From: Gemmatimonadaceae bacterium
GTDB taxonomy: Bacteria; Gemmatimonadota; Gemmatimonadetes; Gemmatimonadales; Gemmatimonadaceae
Direction: 5' to 3'
Length of the DNA: 64,000 nucleotides
Assembly (NCBI GenBank): GCA_036504815.1
Contig: DASXUN010000003.1
Location: forward strand, 62,001-126,000
Positions 13,095 through 38,097 of the stretch are shown in pieces; the stretch's first letter is position 1, and every line of letters starts with the position of its first letter. The notes beneath the pieces were generated by a model that saw only the letters and a list, made by a program, of their open reading frames with translations, ran no database searches and was not told where the DNA came from. The position numbers and the translations under genes were made by a program.

Positions 13095-14108
13095 GTGACC
13101 ACACCCGGCCAGTCCGCCGACGGCGGATTTCGGGCCGGATGGTGGGCGCTGCTGCTCGGGGCGCTGGCGCTCGTCGGTGCCATTGTCCTGATGCTCCATC
13201 CGCCGAACCTCCTGCTCGCCTCGCCGTTCGCTCGCGAGGAACGCGCGCCGTCGGTCTCGGCGTCGCCCGCCGTCTTCGGGCGCAGCGGGCAAGTGCGGGT
13301 GCAGCTCGTCCTTCCCAGCGAGCGCTTCGACTTTCCCCTCGAAGTCCGCGGCGATCCCGGCGGCCTCGGGTATAGCTGGGTACGGGCGCAGGACAGCGCC
13401 GTCGTCACGCCGTCGCAGCCGCTGTTCGGTGCCACCGTGGTCGCCCCCGGCTTCTCCGGCTTCTACCGGCTCGAGGTCGAGAGTGAGACCGGACACCGCA
13501 TCGTGGACTCGGTCCTCGTCGCGGTGATGGTGCCGTACTCCGCCAAGATTGGGCAGGCGCTCAACGGCTACCGCATCGGCAACTATCGGTCAGGGATCGA
13601 CGGCGACGCGCCGCCGCCCCCGCGCGGCTTCGTCGAGGTCACCCCGCAGTCGGTCGACCTCGCCGTGAGCAAGCACATGCGCCTGTCCGACTTCGTCACC
13701 CACGACGAGCAGCAGGACCAATGGCCCAAGTACGTGGCGCTCGATCCTCGCGTGCTCGACAAGGTGGAGCTCGTGATTGCCTATGTCGGGGCGTTCCGCG
13801 GCGGGCGCGACCAGAAGGTGAATGTCGACGTGCACTCCGGCTTCCGGTCGCCAGTCTACAATCGACGCGTGCCGCGCGCGGCGCGCGACAGCCGCCACCA
13901 ATACGGCGATGCCGCTGACCTCGCCATCGACGCCGACGGCGATGGACGCGTCACCTGGCGCGATGGCATGTTGGTCTCGCTGCAGGTGGAGCAGGTCGAA
14001 CGCGATTTCCCGCAGTACGTCGGCGGCCTCGGCCTCTACGGTAACCAGAATGGCGTGCCGTACGTACACATTGATGTGAGGGGGAAACGGGTGCGTTGGA
14101 AGCAGTGA
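13095..14108 (+). CDS. Membrane-anchored M15/DUF882-type peptidase, paralogue 2
   Basis: GTG at 13095, 2 bp after the first paralogue. This one has a membrane helix (WWALLLGALALVGAIVLML, about 16-34) instead of a cleaved signal. It also carries an extra Ig-like N-terminal domain (SGFYRLEVESETGHRIVDSVL). The catalytic part repeats its neighbour's motifs: HMRLSDFVTHDEQ, SGFRSPVYNRR, DSRHQYGDAADL and HIDVRG. The calcium-like insert is shorter (DADGDGRVTWRD). The pair is a tandem duplication that diverged in anchoring and accessory domain. The stop at 14106-14108 overlaps the first unit of a heptad repeat array. Confidence 0.85.
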   Translation: MTTPGQSADGGFRAGWWALLLGALALVGAIVLMLHPPNLLLASPFAREERAPSVSASPAVFGRSGQVRVQLVLPSERFDFPLEVRGDPGGLGYSWVRAQDSAVVTPSQPLFGATVVAPGFSGFYRLEVESETGHRIVDSVLVAVMVPYSAKIGQALNGYRIGNYRSGIDGDAPPPPRGFVEVTPQSVDLAVSKHMRLSDFVTHDEQQDQWPKYVALDPRVLDKVELVIAYVGAFRGGRDQKVNVDVHSGFRSPVYNRRVPRAARDSRHQYGDAADLAIDADGDGRVTWRDGMLVSLQVEQVERDFPQYVGGLGLYGNQNGVPYVHIDVRGKRVRWKQ

Positions 14109-14220
14109 TGGCAGATGGCAGATGGCGGATGGCAGAAGTAGGAGGCCTCAAGCTGTCAGCCATTCGTCCCCTGCTGCACCGCCCGCCGTATCCGCCCTCC
14201 GCCATCTGCCCTCTGCCATC
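14107..14220. repeat. Heptad repeat element with inverted arms (unit GATGGCR)
   Basis: The left arm at 14107-14134 holds four 7-bp units (GATGGCA twice, GATGGCG, GATGGCA) and starts inside the TGA stop of the preceding gene. The right arm at 14193-14220 holds four units of the same family on the opposite strand (GATGGCA, GAGGGCA, GATGGCG, GAGGGCG). Transcribed, the arms could pair over three to four units, so the element may act as a 3' hairpin. It fills most of the 132-bp gap before the next gene. Confidence 0.85.
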
Positions 14221-14240
14221 TCTATCCGCCACACCGATCC

Positions 14241-16315
<2,075 letters not shown>

Positions 16316-16322
16316 GCCGGGT

Positions 16323-16350
16323 GATGGCAGATGGCGGATGGCGGGTGGCA
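16323..16350. repeat. Heptad repeat array behind guaB (GATGGCR)
   Basis: Four 7-bp units (GATGGCA, GATGGCG, GATGGCG, GGTGGCA) start 7 bp after the guaB stop and run into the terminator stem at 16354. No obvious inverted arm is seen; the terminator hairpin takes that place. It is one of four loci of this family in the window. Confidence 0.85.
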
Positions 16351-16353
16351 GAG

Positions 16354-16391
16354 GCGGGGCGACACCCACGGGTGCCGCCCCGCGCATTTTT
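16354..16391 (+). terminator. Rho-independent terminator of guaB
   Basis: A 13-bp stem, GCGGGGCGACACC (16354-16366) with GGTGCCGCCCCGC (16371-16383), has one mismatch and a CACG loop. TTTTT follows at 16387-16391. This is the clearest intrinsic terminator in the window. Confidence 0.85.
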
Positions 16392-26692: not shown

Positions 26693-26834
26693 GCGCAGGG
26701 GCGGAAAAGTAGCCGCCGCGCGCGCGAGCGACCAGCGCTCGCGGCCGCTGTTTGAGCGAAACTGAGGCGCTGATGCCTCCGTCGACACGGGTTCTGCGCT
26801 TGCTCCGGTGCTCCACCCCGGCGAGTTTTCAAGG

Positions 26835-27620
26835 GTGAATCAGACGACCGACCTCGAGGCGCGAGAGGCGAGCGCCGCGGCGGCCGGCGCCGCGGGGAAG
26901 CGCGCCTATGTCCAGCGGATGTTCTCGGACATCGCGCCCCGATACGACCTGCTCAACCGCGTGCTCAGCCTGGGCATCGATCGCTACTGGCGGCGGTTTG
27001 CACTCGCGAGGTTGGGCTGGGAGCGCGATCCGGCCGGCACCTTTCTCGATCTCTGCGCCGGCACGCTCGACGTCGCGTCGGCCTTGAGTGCGCGGACGGG
27101 CTTCCGGGGGCGGGTGGTCGGCGCTGATTTTGCGGAACCGATGTTGCGGGCGGGACGTTCGAAGCTGGCGGGGCGACCGATCACCCCGGTGGTGGCCGAT
27201 GCGTTGGCACTTCCGATGGCCGGCAGCAGTCTCTCCGGGGCGATCGTGGCCTTCGGCATCCGCAACGTTGCCGACCTTGACGCCTGCCTGCGTGAAGTGC
27301 GGAGAGCGTTGAAACCCGGGGCGCGGTTCGTCATCCTCGAGTTCTCCACGCCGCGGGTCTCGCTGGTGCGGAGGGTCTATCATGCGTACTTCCACCACGT
27401 GCTCCCGAAGATCGGCGGACTGGTGAGCGGGCATCGCACCGCGTACACGTACCTGCCGGATTCGGTGAAGAACTTCCCGGAGACGACGGAACTGGCGGCC
27501 CGGATGGAAGCGGCGGGCTATGTGGACGTAAGGTGGCGGACACTAACGTTTGGAATTGCCGCAGTGCATGTCGGGACTAACCCGGCTGATGGCGGATGGC
27601 AGAAGGCGGAGGGCAGATAG
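26835..27620 (+). CDS. menG: Demethylmenaquinone methyltransferase (UbiE/MenG)
   Basis: The 261-residue C-methyltransferase finishes menaquinone by methylating demethylmenaquinone. VQRMFSDIAPRYDLLNRVLSLGID and YWRRFALARL are UbiE signatures. The SAM loop is FLDLCAGTLDVASAL, where T replaces the common G after AG. FGIRNVADLDACLREVRRALKPG and YTYLPDSVKNFPE complete the family pattern. GTG at 26835 follows AAGG. The last 11 or so residues (ADGGWQKAEGR) are encoded by a heptad repeat array that also supplies the stop. It leads the menaquinone run, with the UbiD-type gene starting 2 bp after its stop. Confidence 0.93.
   Translation: MNQTTDLEAREASAAAAGAAGKRAYVQRMFSDIAPRYDLLNRVLSLGIDRYWRRFALARLGWERDPAGTFLDLCAGTLDVASALSARTGFRGRVVGADFAEPMLRAGRSKLAGRPITPVVADALALPMAGSSLSGAIVAFGIRNVADLDACLREVRRALKPGARFVILEFSTPRVSLVRRVYHAYFHHVLPKIGGLVSGHRTAYTYLPDSVKNFPETTELAARMEAAGYVDVRWRTLTFGIAAVHVGTNPADGGWQKAEGR
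27588..27615. repeat. Heptad repeat array inside the 3' end of menG
   Basis: Four 7-bp units (GATGGCG, GATGGCA, GAAGGCG, GAGGGCA) overlap the last codons of menG. They are read in frame as Asp-Gly-Gly-Trp and so on, and the stop follows at once. GGAGGGCAG in the last unit also lies just before the ATG of the next gene and may serve as its ribosome site. Confidence 0.85.
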
Positions 27621-29101: not shown

Positions 29102-30000
29102 CCACGCCGGTGCGCGAAGGGCAGACCTACGGCGGCGCGTCGCGGTTCGTCCGCTACGTGAACTTCGTCAAGCTGCCGCACACCGTCTTCGCGCTCCCCT
29201 TCGCGCTGGTCGGGGTGACGCTGGCGAGCTGGCTGGCGCCGGTGACGCTGCCGACGGTTCTCTGGGTGGTGATCGCCTTCACCGCGGCGCGCTTTGCCGC
29301 GATGGGCTTCAACCGGATCGCCGACCGCCATTACGACGCGCTCAACCCGCGCACCGCGATGCGTGAACTGCCGATGGGCGCCATGAGCGTGGTGGAGGCG
29401 GCGACGAGCGTCGCCGTTGCCTCGCTGGTCTTCCTGTTCGCGGCGTGGCGCATCAACCCGCTCTGCCTGGCGCTCGCGCCGCTCGCGCTCGGTTGGGTGC
29501 TCTTCTACAGCTACACCAAGCGATTCACGCGCTGGGCGCACCTCGTGCTCGGGCTGGGACTCGGCATCGCGCCCGCCGGCGGGTATCTCGCCGTGACCGG
29601 GGCGTGGAGTGATCCATGGTGGCTGCTCCCCGCGCTGGCCGTGGCGGTGATGAGCTGGGTGGGGGGCTTCGACATCCTGTATGCGTTGCCCGACGCCGAG
29701 TTCGATCGCGCACAGGGACTCTATTCGATTCCCTCGACGATGGGGGTCACGACGGCGCTCCGCTTGGCACGTGCCCTGCACGCGCTCACCGTGGTTTCCC
29801 TGCTCGTGGCCGGCCTGGGGTCGGGCTCGGGCGCGCTCTATTTTGCCGGGGTCGTGGTGGCGGCGGGGATCCTCGGGTGGGAACATTCCCTGGTATCGTC
29901 CGATGACCTCTCGAAGCTCGACGCCGCGTTCTTCAGCGTGAACGGCGTGCTGAGCGTCACCTTCTTCCTCTTCGTGCTCGCCGAGCGGGTGTTCGCATGA
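29098..30000 (+). CDS. mqnP: UbiA-family prenyltransferase (menaquinone, MqnP-type)
   Basis: A 300-residue integral-membrane prenyltransferase with about eight helices. The first Asp-rich motif is NRIADRHYDALNPRTAMRELP (split), of NxxxDxxxD type. The second lies in DAEFDRAQGLYSIPSTMG. GTG at 29098 overlaps the previous TGA (GTGA). It would attach the polyprenyl chain to the aromatic menaquinone precursor. The downstream UbiX-type gene overlaps by ATGA, so all three are translationally coupled. Confidence 0.9.
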   Translation: MTTPVREGQTYGGASRFVRYVNFVKLPHTVFALPFALVGVTLASWLAPVTLPTVLWVVIAFTAARFAAMGFNRIADRHYDALNPRTAMRELPMGAMSVVEAATSVAVASLVFLFAAWRINPLCLALAPLALGWVLFYSYTKRFTRWAHLVLGLGLGIAPAGGYLAVTGAWSDPWWLLPALAVAVMSWVGGFDILYALPDAEFDRAQGLYSIPSTMGVTTALRLARALHALTVVSLLVAGLGSGSGALYFAGVVVAAGILGWEHSLVSSDDLSKLDAAFFSVNGVLSVTFFLFVLAERVFA

Positions 30001-30593
30001 GTGCACAACGCCCGATCATCATGGCCGTGACCGGCGCCTCGGGCGCGCCTTATGGCGTGCGGTTGCTGCAGGCGCTGGTGCAGGCCGAGCAGAAGGTGTC
30101 GCTGATCATAAGCGTTCACGGCTTGCGGCTGATCCAGACCGAGACGTCACTCGGCTCCATGGAAGGGCTGCGCGCGCATGTCGGCGCCGCGGCCTGGGAC
30201 CGGTGGGTGACGGTCTACGACGATGGCGACCGCGGCGCCGGGCCGGCGAGCGGTTCGCACCGCGCGCGCGCGATGGTGGTCTGCCCGTGTTCGATGGGAA
30301 CGCTGGCGGCGATTGCCGCGGGGACGAGCCGGTCGCTGGTGGAACGCGCCGCCGACGTGACGCTCAAGGAACGGCGCCCGCTGGTGCTCGTGACGCGCGA
30401 GACGCCGTTGTCGAGCATCCACCTGGAGAACATGTTGCGCGTCACCCAGGCGGGCGCGGTGGTGATGCCGGCGTCGCCGGGCTTCTACAACAAGCCATCC
30501 ACAATTGATGAACTGGTGGATTTCGTCGTCGCGCGGGTGCTCGATCACTTGGGTGTGGAGAACGGGCTGGCGCCGAGGTGGGGAGAGGGCTGA
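29997..30593 (+). CDS. mqnM: UbiX-family flavin prenyltransferase (MqnM-type)
   Basis: A 198-residue enzyme that makes prenylated FMN, the cofactor of the UbiD-type decarboxylase encoded two genes upstream. MAVTGASGAPYGVRLLQAL is the FMN-binding Ser/Gly loop. CPCSMGTLAAIAAGTSRSLVERAADVTLKERRPLVLVTRETPLS (in parts) and MPASPGFYNKPSTIDELVDFVVARVLDHLG are family signatures. The ATG overlaps the UbiA stop by 4 bp. A heptad array and a hairpin terminator follow. Confidence 0.93.
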   Translation: MSAQRPIIMAVTGASGAPYGVRLLQALVQAEQKVSLIISVHGLRLIQTETSLGSMEGLRAHVGAAAWDRWVTVYDDGDRGAGPASGSHRARAMVVCPCSMGTLAAIAAGTSRSLVERAADVTLKERRPLVLVTRETPLSSIHLENMLRVTQAGAVVMPASPGFYNKPSTIDELVDFVVARVLDHLGVENGLAPRWGEG

Positions 30594-30608: not shown

Positions 30609-30664
30609 GATGGCGGATGGCGGATGGCAGATGGCGGATGGCAGATGGCGGATGGCGGATGGCG
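30609..30664. repeat. Eight perfect-phase GATGGCR heptads behind the menaquinone operon
   Basis: Eight consecutive 7-bp units, all GATGGCG or GATGGCA with no other change (A units at positions 3 and 5), start 15 bp after the ubiX-type stop. A degenerate ninth unit (GACGGGG) runs into the terminator stem. This is the longest and cleanest array of the family in the window. Confidence 0.95.
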
Positions 30665-30667
30665 GAC

Positions 30668-30698
30668 GGGGCCAGCGTGCGCTGGCCCTTTGTGTATT
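30668..30698 (+). terminator. Hairpin terminator of the menaquinone operon
   Basis: GGGCCAGC (30669-30676) pairs with GCTGGCCC (30681-30688) around a GTGC loop. TTTGTGTATT follows, a weak T-rich tail. It ends the menaquinone transcript before the MFS gene. Confidence 0.6.
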
Positions 30699-30739: not shown

Positions 30740-30794
30740 CGCCGTAATCGCCAATCGCCATCCTGATTCGCGATCCTGAATCGCAATCCGAATT
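30740..30794. repeat. Degenerate inverted arm of the heptad element before the MFS gene
   Basis: On the minus strand this reads as imperfect 6-8 bp units built on GATTGCG, GATCGCG, GATGGCG and GATTGGCG. It is therefore the opposite-strand partner of the array at 30609, 75 bp away. No gene is seen between the arms other than the terminator. Confidence 0.5.
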
Positions 30795-35427: not shown

Positions 35428-38097
35428 TTGCTACGCCCACGCAGTCTGTTGGTTGCCCTGACCTCAACGCTCGTCGTCGCGGTCGCCTGCACCGACCAGC
35501 CAGTTCCCACCGAGGGTAGTCGACTGCTATCGCGACACGCGAGCGCGGCGACCTACACGGAGATCACAGCGCAAATCATGGTGGTGTTCGGCACGACCGA
35601 AGTGAAGATGCCGAACACCAACTCCGCGCTGCAGAAGTTCGATCTCATCACCAAGAAGCTGCAGCGCAACACGGCCATCGACTCCGTCGACGCGCGGGTG
35701 CACACGTTCGATCTCATCGACTTCATTCGGGTGAAGGCCTACGAACTTGCCGATCAGACGCAAGTGCAGGCATTGATCGATGCCCTCGAGACCTTCGCCG
35801 GCATCACGAGTGACAGCTTCCTGGTATATCCGTCGGATCAACCGCAGACCCTCCTGACCGACAACGGCCATGCCGGGCTGCAGTTGCCCGTCAATCCCGT
35901 GACGTTTCCGACGCTGTTCACGATCACGCCGCTGGACAGCACGGTGCCTCCGCTCACGACGAAGCTCGACCAGTATCCGGGCTACATCGAAGTCGGCCAG
36001 CAGTCAGCTGATCCCGACGGCAATCCGCTCACGGGTCCGGTCACGGTGGCCGTTTGTGCGAAGACCGGCATTCCCGATTCCATTGCGACTCGTCTGCGGC
36101 TCGGGCATCAGACGCCCGCCGGCTTCGTGGTGACGCCGAACGCCGACGCCAGTTTCCTGCGCTGCCAGCAGCCCACCGGCGTCACAGGTATGCTCCCCAG
36201 CTGGATGCGTACCGTGGCAAGCTTTGTTCTGCCCAGATCGGCGTACGCTGACGTCGTGTTCAGCGGAGGCGTCGGCGGCACGGCCGAGGCGTTCAGTCCG
36301 TTCGCTCCCGTGGACCCGCTGCTGGCGCTCTCAGGCGGCGTGGGCGGGACGGCCGAGGCGTTCATTCGGACGTTGGCGCCGTCGGATGTCACGGCGACAA
36401 GGCCTTCTGGCAGCGAGGGAATATCGAAGCGCACGCCGCGGGCGAACACGGTGGAATCGGCAGTGCTCGTTTCGGGGTGCGATGCAGCCGTCATCGGATC
36501 GGCGCTGACGCCCGAATGCCGCCCGCGCGTGGAGCTTCGTACGGCGCTGGGCACGGTGCTCAAGAATGTCCCGGTTGGCTGGGCGATTGGAGCGGGTGAT
36601 GGATCGACGGCGGCAGATGATCCCGTGACGCGCGCGTGCGGCACGTTTGGGACAACGGCCGAGACGACCACCAACGACCGCGGCAAGGCTGGTGCCTGCT
36701 GGACGCTCGGAATGACGGCGGGATCGAATACGCTGGTCGCCACGCCGCGTCCCGGGGGCGATGCACCAGCTGGGACGACGTTCTCGCCCTCGTCCTGGAC
36801 GTTCACCGTGACGGCACTGAAGGCCGCGGCGACGGTGACGGTGGATTGCGGCGTCGGTCCGTTCGTCTACACGGGCGCGCCGCTGGCTCCGTGCACCGCC
36901 GTAGCCACTGGCATTGGCGGACTCTCGCAGCCGCTCACGCCCGTCTATCTCAACAACACGAATGCGGGAACCGCGGCCGTCGCCGCGACCTTCGCGGGTG
37001 ATGCCAACCACACTGCCGCCACCGGCACGGCAAGCTTCACGATTGCGCCGGCGTCGTCCGTGGTCACGGTGTCGTGCGGCGGCTCCTACGTCTATACCGG
37101 CGCGCCGCTGACGCCTTGCACGGCGACCGCGACGGGTGTCGGCGGTCTCTCCCAGCCGCTCACGCCCGACTACAGCAGCAACACGGCGGTGGGGACGGCC
37201 GGCGTCATCGCGACGTTTGCGGGCGATGCCAACCACACCGCGTCCAGCAGCTCGACGACCTTCACCATCACGAAGGCGTCGTCTGCGATAGCCGTTGTTT
37301 GCGGCGGTCCGTACACGTACACCGGTGGGCCGCTGACGCCGTGCACGGCGTCGGCGACGGGAGCCGGTAGTTTGGTCGCGCCGCTCACCCCGGTCTATAG
37401 CGGCAATACCGACGCGGGAACGGCGACGGTCACTGCGAGCTTTGCGGGCGATGCCAATCACTTCAGCTCTAGTGGCGCGGGCAGCTTCATCATCAGTCCC
37501 GCGACACCGGTGCTCACGTGGGCAAGTCCGGCCCCGATTCAGCTTGGCACGCCACTCAGCGGCACGCAGTTGAACGCCTCGGCGAGCTACCCAAACATCA
37601 ATCCGGTCGCCGGCGCTTTCGCCTACACGCCGCCCGCCGGGACCGTACTGCCGGCCGGCACCAGCACGCTGTCGGTGCTCTTCACGCCGACGAGTGCGAA
37701 CTTCACGTCGACGTCCGCCATCGTAAGCTTGGCGGTGCGCTTCGTCCAGGTCGGCTGCTTCGCGTCCCCGGTGTACAGCGAGATGCCGATCACGAAGTCG
37801 TACCAGAGGAAAGGCTCGATTGTGCCGATCAAGTGCACGCTGACCAATGCCTTCGGAGCCGGCGTGCTGAATGCCAGGGGCGACCTGCGGGTCGACGACA
37901 TGGGTATGGTCTTCGGTGCCGACGTGACGCCGATCACGGTCTTCTCGGGCGCCAACGTGTTCAAGGTGTCAGGCAGCGGCAATTACGCGTATGGCCTCGA
38001 CACCTCGCCGTCCGGATTCCTGATCGGCCATTACTACCACGTGACCGCGACGTGGAGCGACGGATCGCGCACACTCGGATGGTTCTACGTCAAGTGA
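35428..38097 (+). CDS. Large surface lipoprotein with three MBG/Ig-like repeats and PxKF-like end
   Basis: An 889-residue exported protein starting at TTG 35428. The signal ends VVAVAC, a lipobox with Cys21. Residues about 24-150 are helical and conserved-looking (LQKFDLITKKLQ). Around 270-312 the phrase SGGVGGTAEAF occurs twice, 33 residues apart. Three consecutive repeats of about 75 residues cover roughly 465-695. Each contains YTGAPL-PCTA and FAGDANH and a Cys pair. The C-terminus (KGSIVPIKCTLTNAFG to TLGWFYVK) resembles the PxKF domain of secreted actinobacterial and gemmatimonad-type proteins, with Cys in place of Phe. Likely a cell-surface or adhesion protein; function not shown. Confidence 0.8.
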   Translation: MLRPRSLLVALTSTLVVAVACTDQPVPTEGSRLLSRHASAATYTEITAQIMVVFGTTEVKMPNTNSALQKFDLITKKLQRNTAIDSVDARVHTFDLIDFIRVKAYELADQTQVQALIDALETFAGITSDSFLVYPSDQPQTLLTDNGHAGLQLPVNPVTFPTLFTITPLDSTVPPLTTKLDQYPGYIEVGQQSADPDGNPLTGPVTVAVCAKTGIPDSIATRLRLGHQTPAGFVVTPNADASFLRCQQPTGVTGMLPSWMRTVASFVLPRSAYADVVFSGGVGGTAEAFSPFAPVDPLLALSGGVGGTAEAFIRTLAPSDVTATRPSGSEGISKRTPRANTVESAVLVSGCDAAVIGSALTPECRPRVELRTALGTVLKNVPVGWAIGAGDGSTAADDPVTRACGTFGTTAETTTNDRGKAGACWTLGMTAGSNTLVATPRPGGDAPAGTTFSPSSWTFTVTALKAAATVTVDCGVGPFVYTGAPLAPCTAVATGIGGLSQPLTPVYLNNTNAGTAAVAATFAGDANHTAATGTASFTIAPASSVVTVSCGGSYVYTGAPLTPCTATATGVGGLSQPLTPDYSSNTAVGTAGVIATFAGDANHTASSSSTTFTITKASSAIAVVCGGPYTYTGGPLTPCTASATGAGSLVAPLTPVYSGNTDAGTATVTASFAGDANHFSSSGAGSFIISPATPVLTWASPAPIQLGTPLSGTQLNASASYPNINPVAGAFAYTPPAGTVLPAGTSTLSVLFTPTSANFTSTSAIVSLAVRFVQVGCFASPVYSEMPITKSYQRKGSIVPIKCTLTNAFGAGVLNARGDLRVDDMGMVFGADVTPITVFSGANVFKVSGSGNYAYGLDTSPSGFLIGHYYHVTATWSDGSRTLGWFYVK
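36828..37510 (+). repeat. Three tandem ~225-bp coding repeats (Ig/MBG-like)
   Basis: Three adjacent copies, beginning near 36828, 37060 and 37285, each encode about 75 residues. Every copy has Cys near position 6 and a second at PC near position 20, then a QPLTP or APLTP turn, an NT-AGTA strand and FAGDANH. The DNA has diverged while the protein stays similar, so the duplication is old. Confidence 0.85.

Follow-up and report, generated by a model that had tools for sequence, protein, structure and literature searches.

What does a tandem array of heptads do at the edge of a bacterial gene? The question is raised by positions 30609-30664 of the window (the whole stretch of 64 kb analysed here, C3:62001-126000), where eight exact GATGGCR units follow the UbiX gene (29997-30593). 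The window comes from a 3.5 Mb Gemmatimonadaceae genome (G000) of a genus covered here by 11 genomes, and the nearest relatives of its UbiX are likewise found in Gemmatimonadaceae MAGs.

Heptad arrays in the window

A preliminary description of this DNA had proposed a dispersed GATGGCR family at gene ends, and this is confirmed by 13 exact dimer matches (GATGGCRGATGGCR), all on the + strand and located at 14107, 16323, 27588 and 30609, compared to a mean of 0.01 in dinucleotide shuffles, none of 100 of which reached 13. A genome-wide count, as had been proposed there, gave 75 overlapping matches to the exact three-unit pattern (54 on the + and 21 on the - strand) and one match for the reversed control. 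The genes near the arrays encode IMP dehydrogenase (14783-16315), MenG (26808-27620), UbiD, a UbiA-like prenyltransferase and UbiX.

As previously stated, all four arrays adjoin or overlap a stop codon. The array at 14107..14136 (+) overlaps the stop of 13095-14108 and represents the left, purine arm of an inverted pair, the right arm of which (14190..14221, - strand, pyrimidine on +) ends 19 bp before the next start; together, both arms are predicted to form a long stem (-68.3 kcal/mol, z -5.5). The array at 16323..16352 (+) starts 7 bp past the IMP dehydrogenase stop (16315) and is followed by a GC-rich hairpin with a T-run, which by sequence and fold resembles an intrinsic terminator (16354..16391, +). 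A degenerate array at 27584..27618 (+) lies in frame within the last codons of MenG, whose stop is the TAG at 27618-27620, and ends immediately ahead of the probable UbiD start (27623). Together with in-frame arrays in MnmG, a gamma-glutamyltranspeptidase and a xanthine-dehydrogenase-like gene, it contradicts the earlier argument that coding cannot explain a 7-bp period.

The longest array (30609..30666, +, 8.3 units, 92% matches in TRF) starts 15 bp past the UbiX stop (30593). This purine arm has no matching heptad arm downstream, and the surrounding region shows no folding excess (z -0.4). Taken alone, it hence lacks the inverted arm that a bidirectional terminator would have, and lone arms of this kind are not accounted for by a hairpin of their own. 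Directly 3' of the array, the sequence GGGCCAGCG/CGCTGGCCC followed by TTT has the appearance of an intrinsic-terminator hairpin (30669..30691, +), and a like hairpin is present in several congeners with a different array unit; 3' of UbiX, congeners carry other purine-rich repeats or none, followed by a similar terminator hairpin. Further downstream, the gene after UbiX is preceded by a degenerate arm with a period of ~13 bp (about 30746-30793, - strand, pyrimidine-rich on +; AATCGCAATCCTG-like, AATCGC-type), which is similar in several congeners with a different post-UbiX array. The reverse arm at 14190-14221, the degenerate 13-bp arm (~30755-30789) and the terminator-like hairpins right after the 16323 and 30609 arrays are additions to the preliminary description.

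In arrays picked out by a seed of two exact GATGGCR units, 148 inner units show 98.6-100% invariance at positions 1, 2, 4, 5 and 6, a T in 83% at position 3 and free variation at position 7; near-exact seeding inflates these invariance values, while the contrast between positions persists. The earlier remark that units vary almost only at their last base thus holds to the extent that this base is mostly free.

Polarity at gene edges and inverted pairs

The wider survey covered 864 kb, about a quarter of the window's genome, with CDSs from a home-made ORF caller, which is why start-side distances are rough. Short-period arms occur in 63 of 386 intergenic gaps of at least 40 bp. Short-period arrays are dominated by period 7, and the majority of arms are noncoding. 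The 86 arms in these gaps have periods of 7 (n=42, mostly GATGGCR), 11 (n=20, ACAACAGAGAR), 10 (n=16, ACGACAGAGT) and others (n=8). The 10-mer and 11-mer families, ACGACAGAGT and ACAACAGAGAR, were observed in contig C21 (L031-L050) with the same gene-edge geometry as GATGGCR. In the 11-mer, positions 7 and 9 are variable and the remainder is 97-100% constant.

The rule that emerges is one of short-period repeat arms at CDS edges, at stops as well as at starts, with the purine-rich strand pointing outward. An outward direction relative to the nearer CDS holds for 72 of the 86 arms (p=1.4e-10), which bears on the question of position and strand raised in the preliminary description, and for 100 of 107 arms of an earlier genus-wide set. 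In the latter, the median distance from the CDS edge to the 5' end of the arm was 6 bp. The initial view that arrays sit behind stop codons is borne out by the 62 stop-side arms in this first genus-wide sample, most of which begin -6 to +15 bp from the stop; it is too narrow with regard to the 45 start-side arms, whose distances are less tight, so that polarity away from the CDS is the more general description. Arms are found in 16 of 66 convergent gaps (24%), in 42 of 228 co-directional gaps (17-20%) and in only 5 of 92 divergent gaps (5%) of the 864 kb. A genome from another family of the order (G175) follows the same rule, with 24 of 27 arms polar and arms in 8 of 10 convergent gaps; in G111, a polarity of 7 out of 10 arms was not significant. 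Gene ends without arrays are only weakly skewed in purine/pyrimidine content, with no more than 54% purine past stops, which means that the arrays are more than the extreme of an overall bias. The sequence AGTGATGGC is visible as a fixed 5' junction in the window's genome; when the whole genus is considered it is only a weak consensus, and it was dropped as a candidate.

The arms are frequently paired. Across 13 sampled genomes, inverted neighbouring arms occur with the purine arm first in 48 cases and with the pyrimidine arm first in one. Of the arms in G000, 64% are followed by a complementary partner, and of those in G175, 81%; both values exceed the 99th percentile of controls, so that inverted arms can be folded in the transcripts from both sides. 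Some loci have a GC-rich terminator-like stem of which the arms are a direct extension. In G000, 19 of 20 pairs have both arms in one period class, and the sharing of a unit class in the first 11 pairs has a permutation p of about 2e-5. In G175, the mean unit mismatch between paired arms is 0.69 and rises to 2.34 upon shuffling, with none of 20000 shuffles as low. Since paired arms nearly always come from one unit family, a hairpin can form. Within one class, an arm is no more like its own partner than like arms from other loci, which speaks against base-by-base compensation within the class and led to the rejection of local copying from one arm to the other. Behind single stop-side arms, hairpins are not significantly stronger than behind control stops (p=0.16), and the idea that such arms are regular partners of strong terminators was accordingly discarded. 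As a separate observation, G175 (L286-L295) contains several heptads, namely GAAGGGA, GATGGAT, ACAGATG and ACTAGAG, which are mostly common to both arms and mostly located in convergent gaps.

Dialects and retained slots in relatives

Every one of the 11 genus members carries arrays of the general form GAYGGNN. In the family as a whole their distribution is patchy (43 of 148 genomes), and beyond the order they are almost completely missing. Absence from close relatives, which the preliminary description would have taken as evidence against the family, is thus not what we find: the family is there, with its unit often replaced. The genomes differ in their dialect at unit positions 3, 6 and 7, with GATGGCR in G000 and G008, GACGGTA in G010, GACGGTG in G004 and mixtures elsewhere, and their distribution does not simply mirror a four-protein tree. 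The 11-mer was detected in five of eight genus members searched, a count that includes the window's own genome; the other 110 family members lacked it.

At the MenG-UbiD junction, most congeners retain an array in a different spelling. A second slot of this kind was noticed in the xanthine-dehydrogenase-like gene (L048:12419-14728; L253-L262), where heptads lie in frame between MoCoBD domains and their spelling changes by species; heptads of the same length occupy it in most of ten congeners and are decayed in G008, G009 and G010. Over 22 slot-species pairs, slots fit the dialect of their own genome better than a permuted one (p=0.01), although some, as in G008, clearly depart from this. That a slot is kept and respelt among close relatives suggests a fast-evolving boundary or terminator element. 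It is also conceivable, although improbable from our point of view, that the units of dozens of dispersed gene-edge hairpins are rewritten together, either by homogenisation across the genome or by a trans-acting factor that co-evolves with them. Were this the case, dialects would be species-specific against a background of persistent slots, period, polarity and arm complementarity, and transcription-boundary elements evolving in concert would constitute a class so far unknown. In addition, an in-frame heptad array (MADGGWRMADGG) was observed in a variable loop of MnmG/GidA (L034:12084-14048), which among five genomes with a match is found only in G000.

Possible functions and known parallels

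Our favoured reading, which we hold with slightly less than even confidence, is that the GATGGCR arrays are arms of dispersed polar gene-edge elements that act as bidirectional terminator or insulator hairpins. We infer termination or insulation from complementarity, the excess in convergent gaps and the order of the arms. A transcript from either gene would carry the purine arm, any native GC stem and then the pyrimidine arm, and these could fold into one long hairpin. A hybrid of pyrimidine RNA with purine DNA is weak, and with the purine arm first, either strand would have such a hybrid at its 3' arm, where, lying under the polymerase, it might aid release. The element could thereby serve as a bidirectional terminator or insulator; protection of the mRNA 3' end is also possible. 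Lone arms such as that at 30609 may separate the stop, as purine spacers, from an ordinary terminator, or may have lost their partner to decay. The arrays would expand by slippage and be copied between loci, and one dialect per genome would be the expected result. Against this reading stand the roughly one third of arms that have no complementary partner, the frequent start-side arms, which termination does not obviously explain, the absence of stronger hairpins behind single stop-side arms and the lack of compensation between partners within a class.

One could also imagine, as a somewhat unlikely alternative, that these are neutral simple repeats that grow by slippage, are occasionally copied between loci and are tolerated only at gene edges, without any function; polarity and pairing would then originate from a mutational mechanism such as slippage or template switching at hairpins. 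The rapid unit turnover between species, the arms within variable loops of coding genes, as in the MnmG of G000, and an over-alternation of A and G units consistent with 14-bp slippage are in line with neutrality. However, neutrality by itself does not yield polarity at both stops and starts, the slots in the xanthine-dehydrogenase-like gene and at the MenG-UbiD junction are retained in most congeners, and five of seven unit positions are nearly invariant next to free positions 3 and 7, even if seeding inflates the degree of invariance. The invariant core beside free positions would also fit a nucleic-acid-binding protein or uptake machinery that reads the unit, with the dialect following the factor as for DNA uptake sequences, and so would the species dialects, the better match of slots to their own dialect, the single 11-mer core in five species and the inverted pairs near terminators, which are also a feature of uptake sequences (PMC3630211). 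We nevertheless consider such recognition decidedly improbable, as the arrays, at roughly 70 per Mb, are sparser than uptake sequences, are strongly intergenic and comprise three unit lengths in one genome, as some slots mismatch the genome dialect (G008) and as no candidate factor was found.

Two further explanations were considered. If the pyrimidine strand were a Rho-loading site, untranslated transcripts entering a CDS by antisense transcription or read-through would carry (NGCCNTC)n and be stopped by Rho; this accords with polarity at both gene ends and with arm frequencies that decrease from convergent over co-directional to divergent gaps, yet leaves unexplained why both arms of a gap have a common unit, and we regard it as very improbable. 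We give hardly any credence to G-quadruplex elements, as proposed for the GGGNATC heptads: geometry and period agree with the Xanthomonas/Nostoc family, but GATGGCR offers only GG tracts instead of the GGG tracts of that kind, which also favours arrays of four units, and the 10-mer and 11-mer families follow the same rule with consensus units devoid of GG. Polarity, the unit class shared by pairs and the dialects together point to the hairpin rather than to the unit sequence or a quadruplex.

Cyanobacterial STRR heptamers are likewise dispersed 7-bp tandem repeats that are mainly intergenic. The preliminary description had named them as the nearest parallel; by description the likeness stands, with a different sequence, whereas a closer published parallel is provided by the 7-bp intergenic arrays GGGNATC and GGGGA(C/T)T of Xanthomonas and Nostoc (Rehm et al., 2015; PMC4692102). 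In these, the G-rich strand is the coding strand after stops and the non-coding strand before starts, arrays are rarer between divergent genes, occur as singles and inverted pairs and mostly retain their gene context in a relative, and their function was left open (PMC4692102). The 7-bp, mainly intergenic unit, the outward G-rich strand (72/86), the divergent deficit and the inverted pairs are common to both, while phylum and unit differ and GGG tracts are missing here. The Gemmatimonadaceae arrays further add 10- and 11-mer siblings, congeners that respell the same slot and a pair-shared unit class. The GATGGCR family hence belongs with the polar heptads of Xanthomonas and Nostoc, though it is not clearly a quadruplex repeat.

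DNA uptake sequences are single copies and denser than roughly 70 per Mb; the tandem arrangement sets GATGGCR apart from them. With those of the Neisseriaceae, whose spelling is species-specific and whose inverted pairs are associated with terminators (PMC3630211), it shares inverted pairs and a species dialect, given that positions 3, 6 and 7 vary by genome and slots fit their own dialect (p=0.01). The TAACTGA repeats of Beggiatoaceae (PMC4679880) are likewise numerous at gene edges, as short direct arrays of a heptad, but lie mostly just 5' of start codons, have almost no inverted copies and use a single fixed unit that is found in distant lineages as well. REP/REPIN elements resemble the present family as dispersed extragenic inverted pairs, whereas the loops of GATGGCR pairs are not visibly common to different loci. 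A RAYT (Y1_Tnp) was matched only in G001 and G004 of the 11 genomes and in neither G000 nor the other eight congeners, and a REP/RAYT origin was rejected given the lack of a Y1 transposase in G000. A literature search of limited reach returned nothing relevant on repeats in Gemmatimonadota.

Gene-edge heptads have been described in a few bacterial lineages without a known function. Polarity, pair-shared unit class and species dialects provide three quantitative handles on them, which make function testable by RNA 3'-end mapping, and persistent slots with changing spelling represent a natural system for the concerted evolution of dispersed short repeats in bacteria.

The window contains two further repeats of a different kind. 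A tandem repeat with a period of 225 bp (36851-37461, 2.7 copies) lies within an 889-aa ORF (35428-38097), whose repetitive product has no Pfam match, and a perfect 12-bp repeat (CACCCGCCGCGC, 14668-14713, 3.8 copies) is located near the 3' end of the ORF at 14241-14738.
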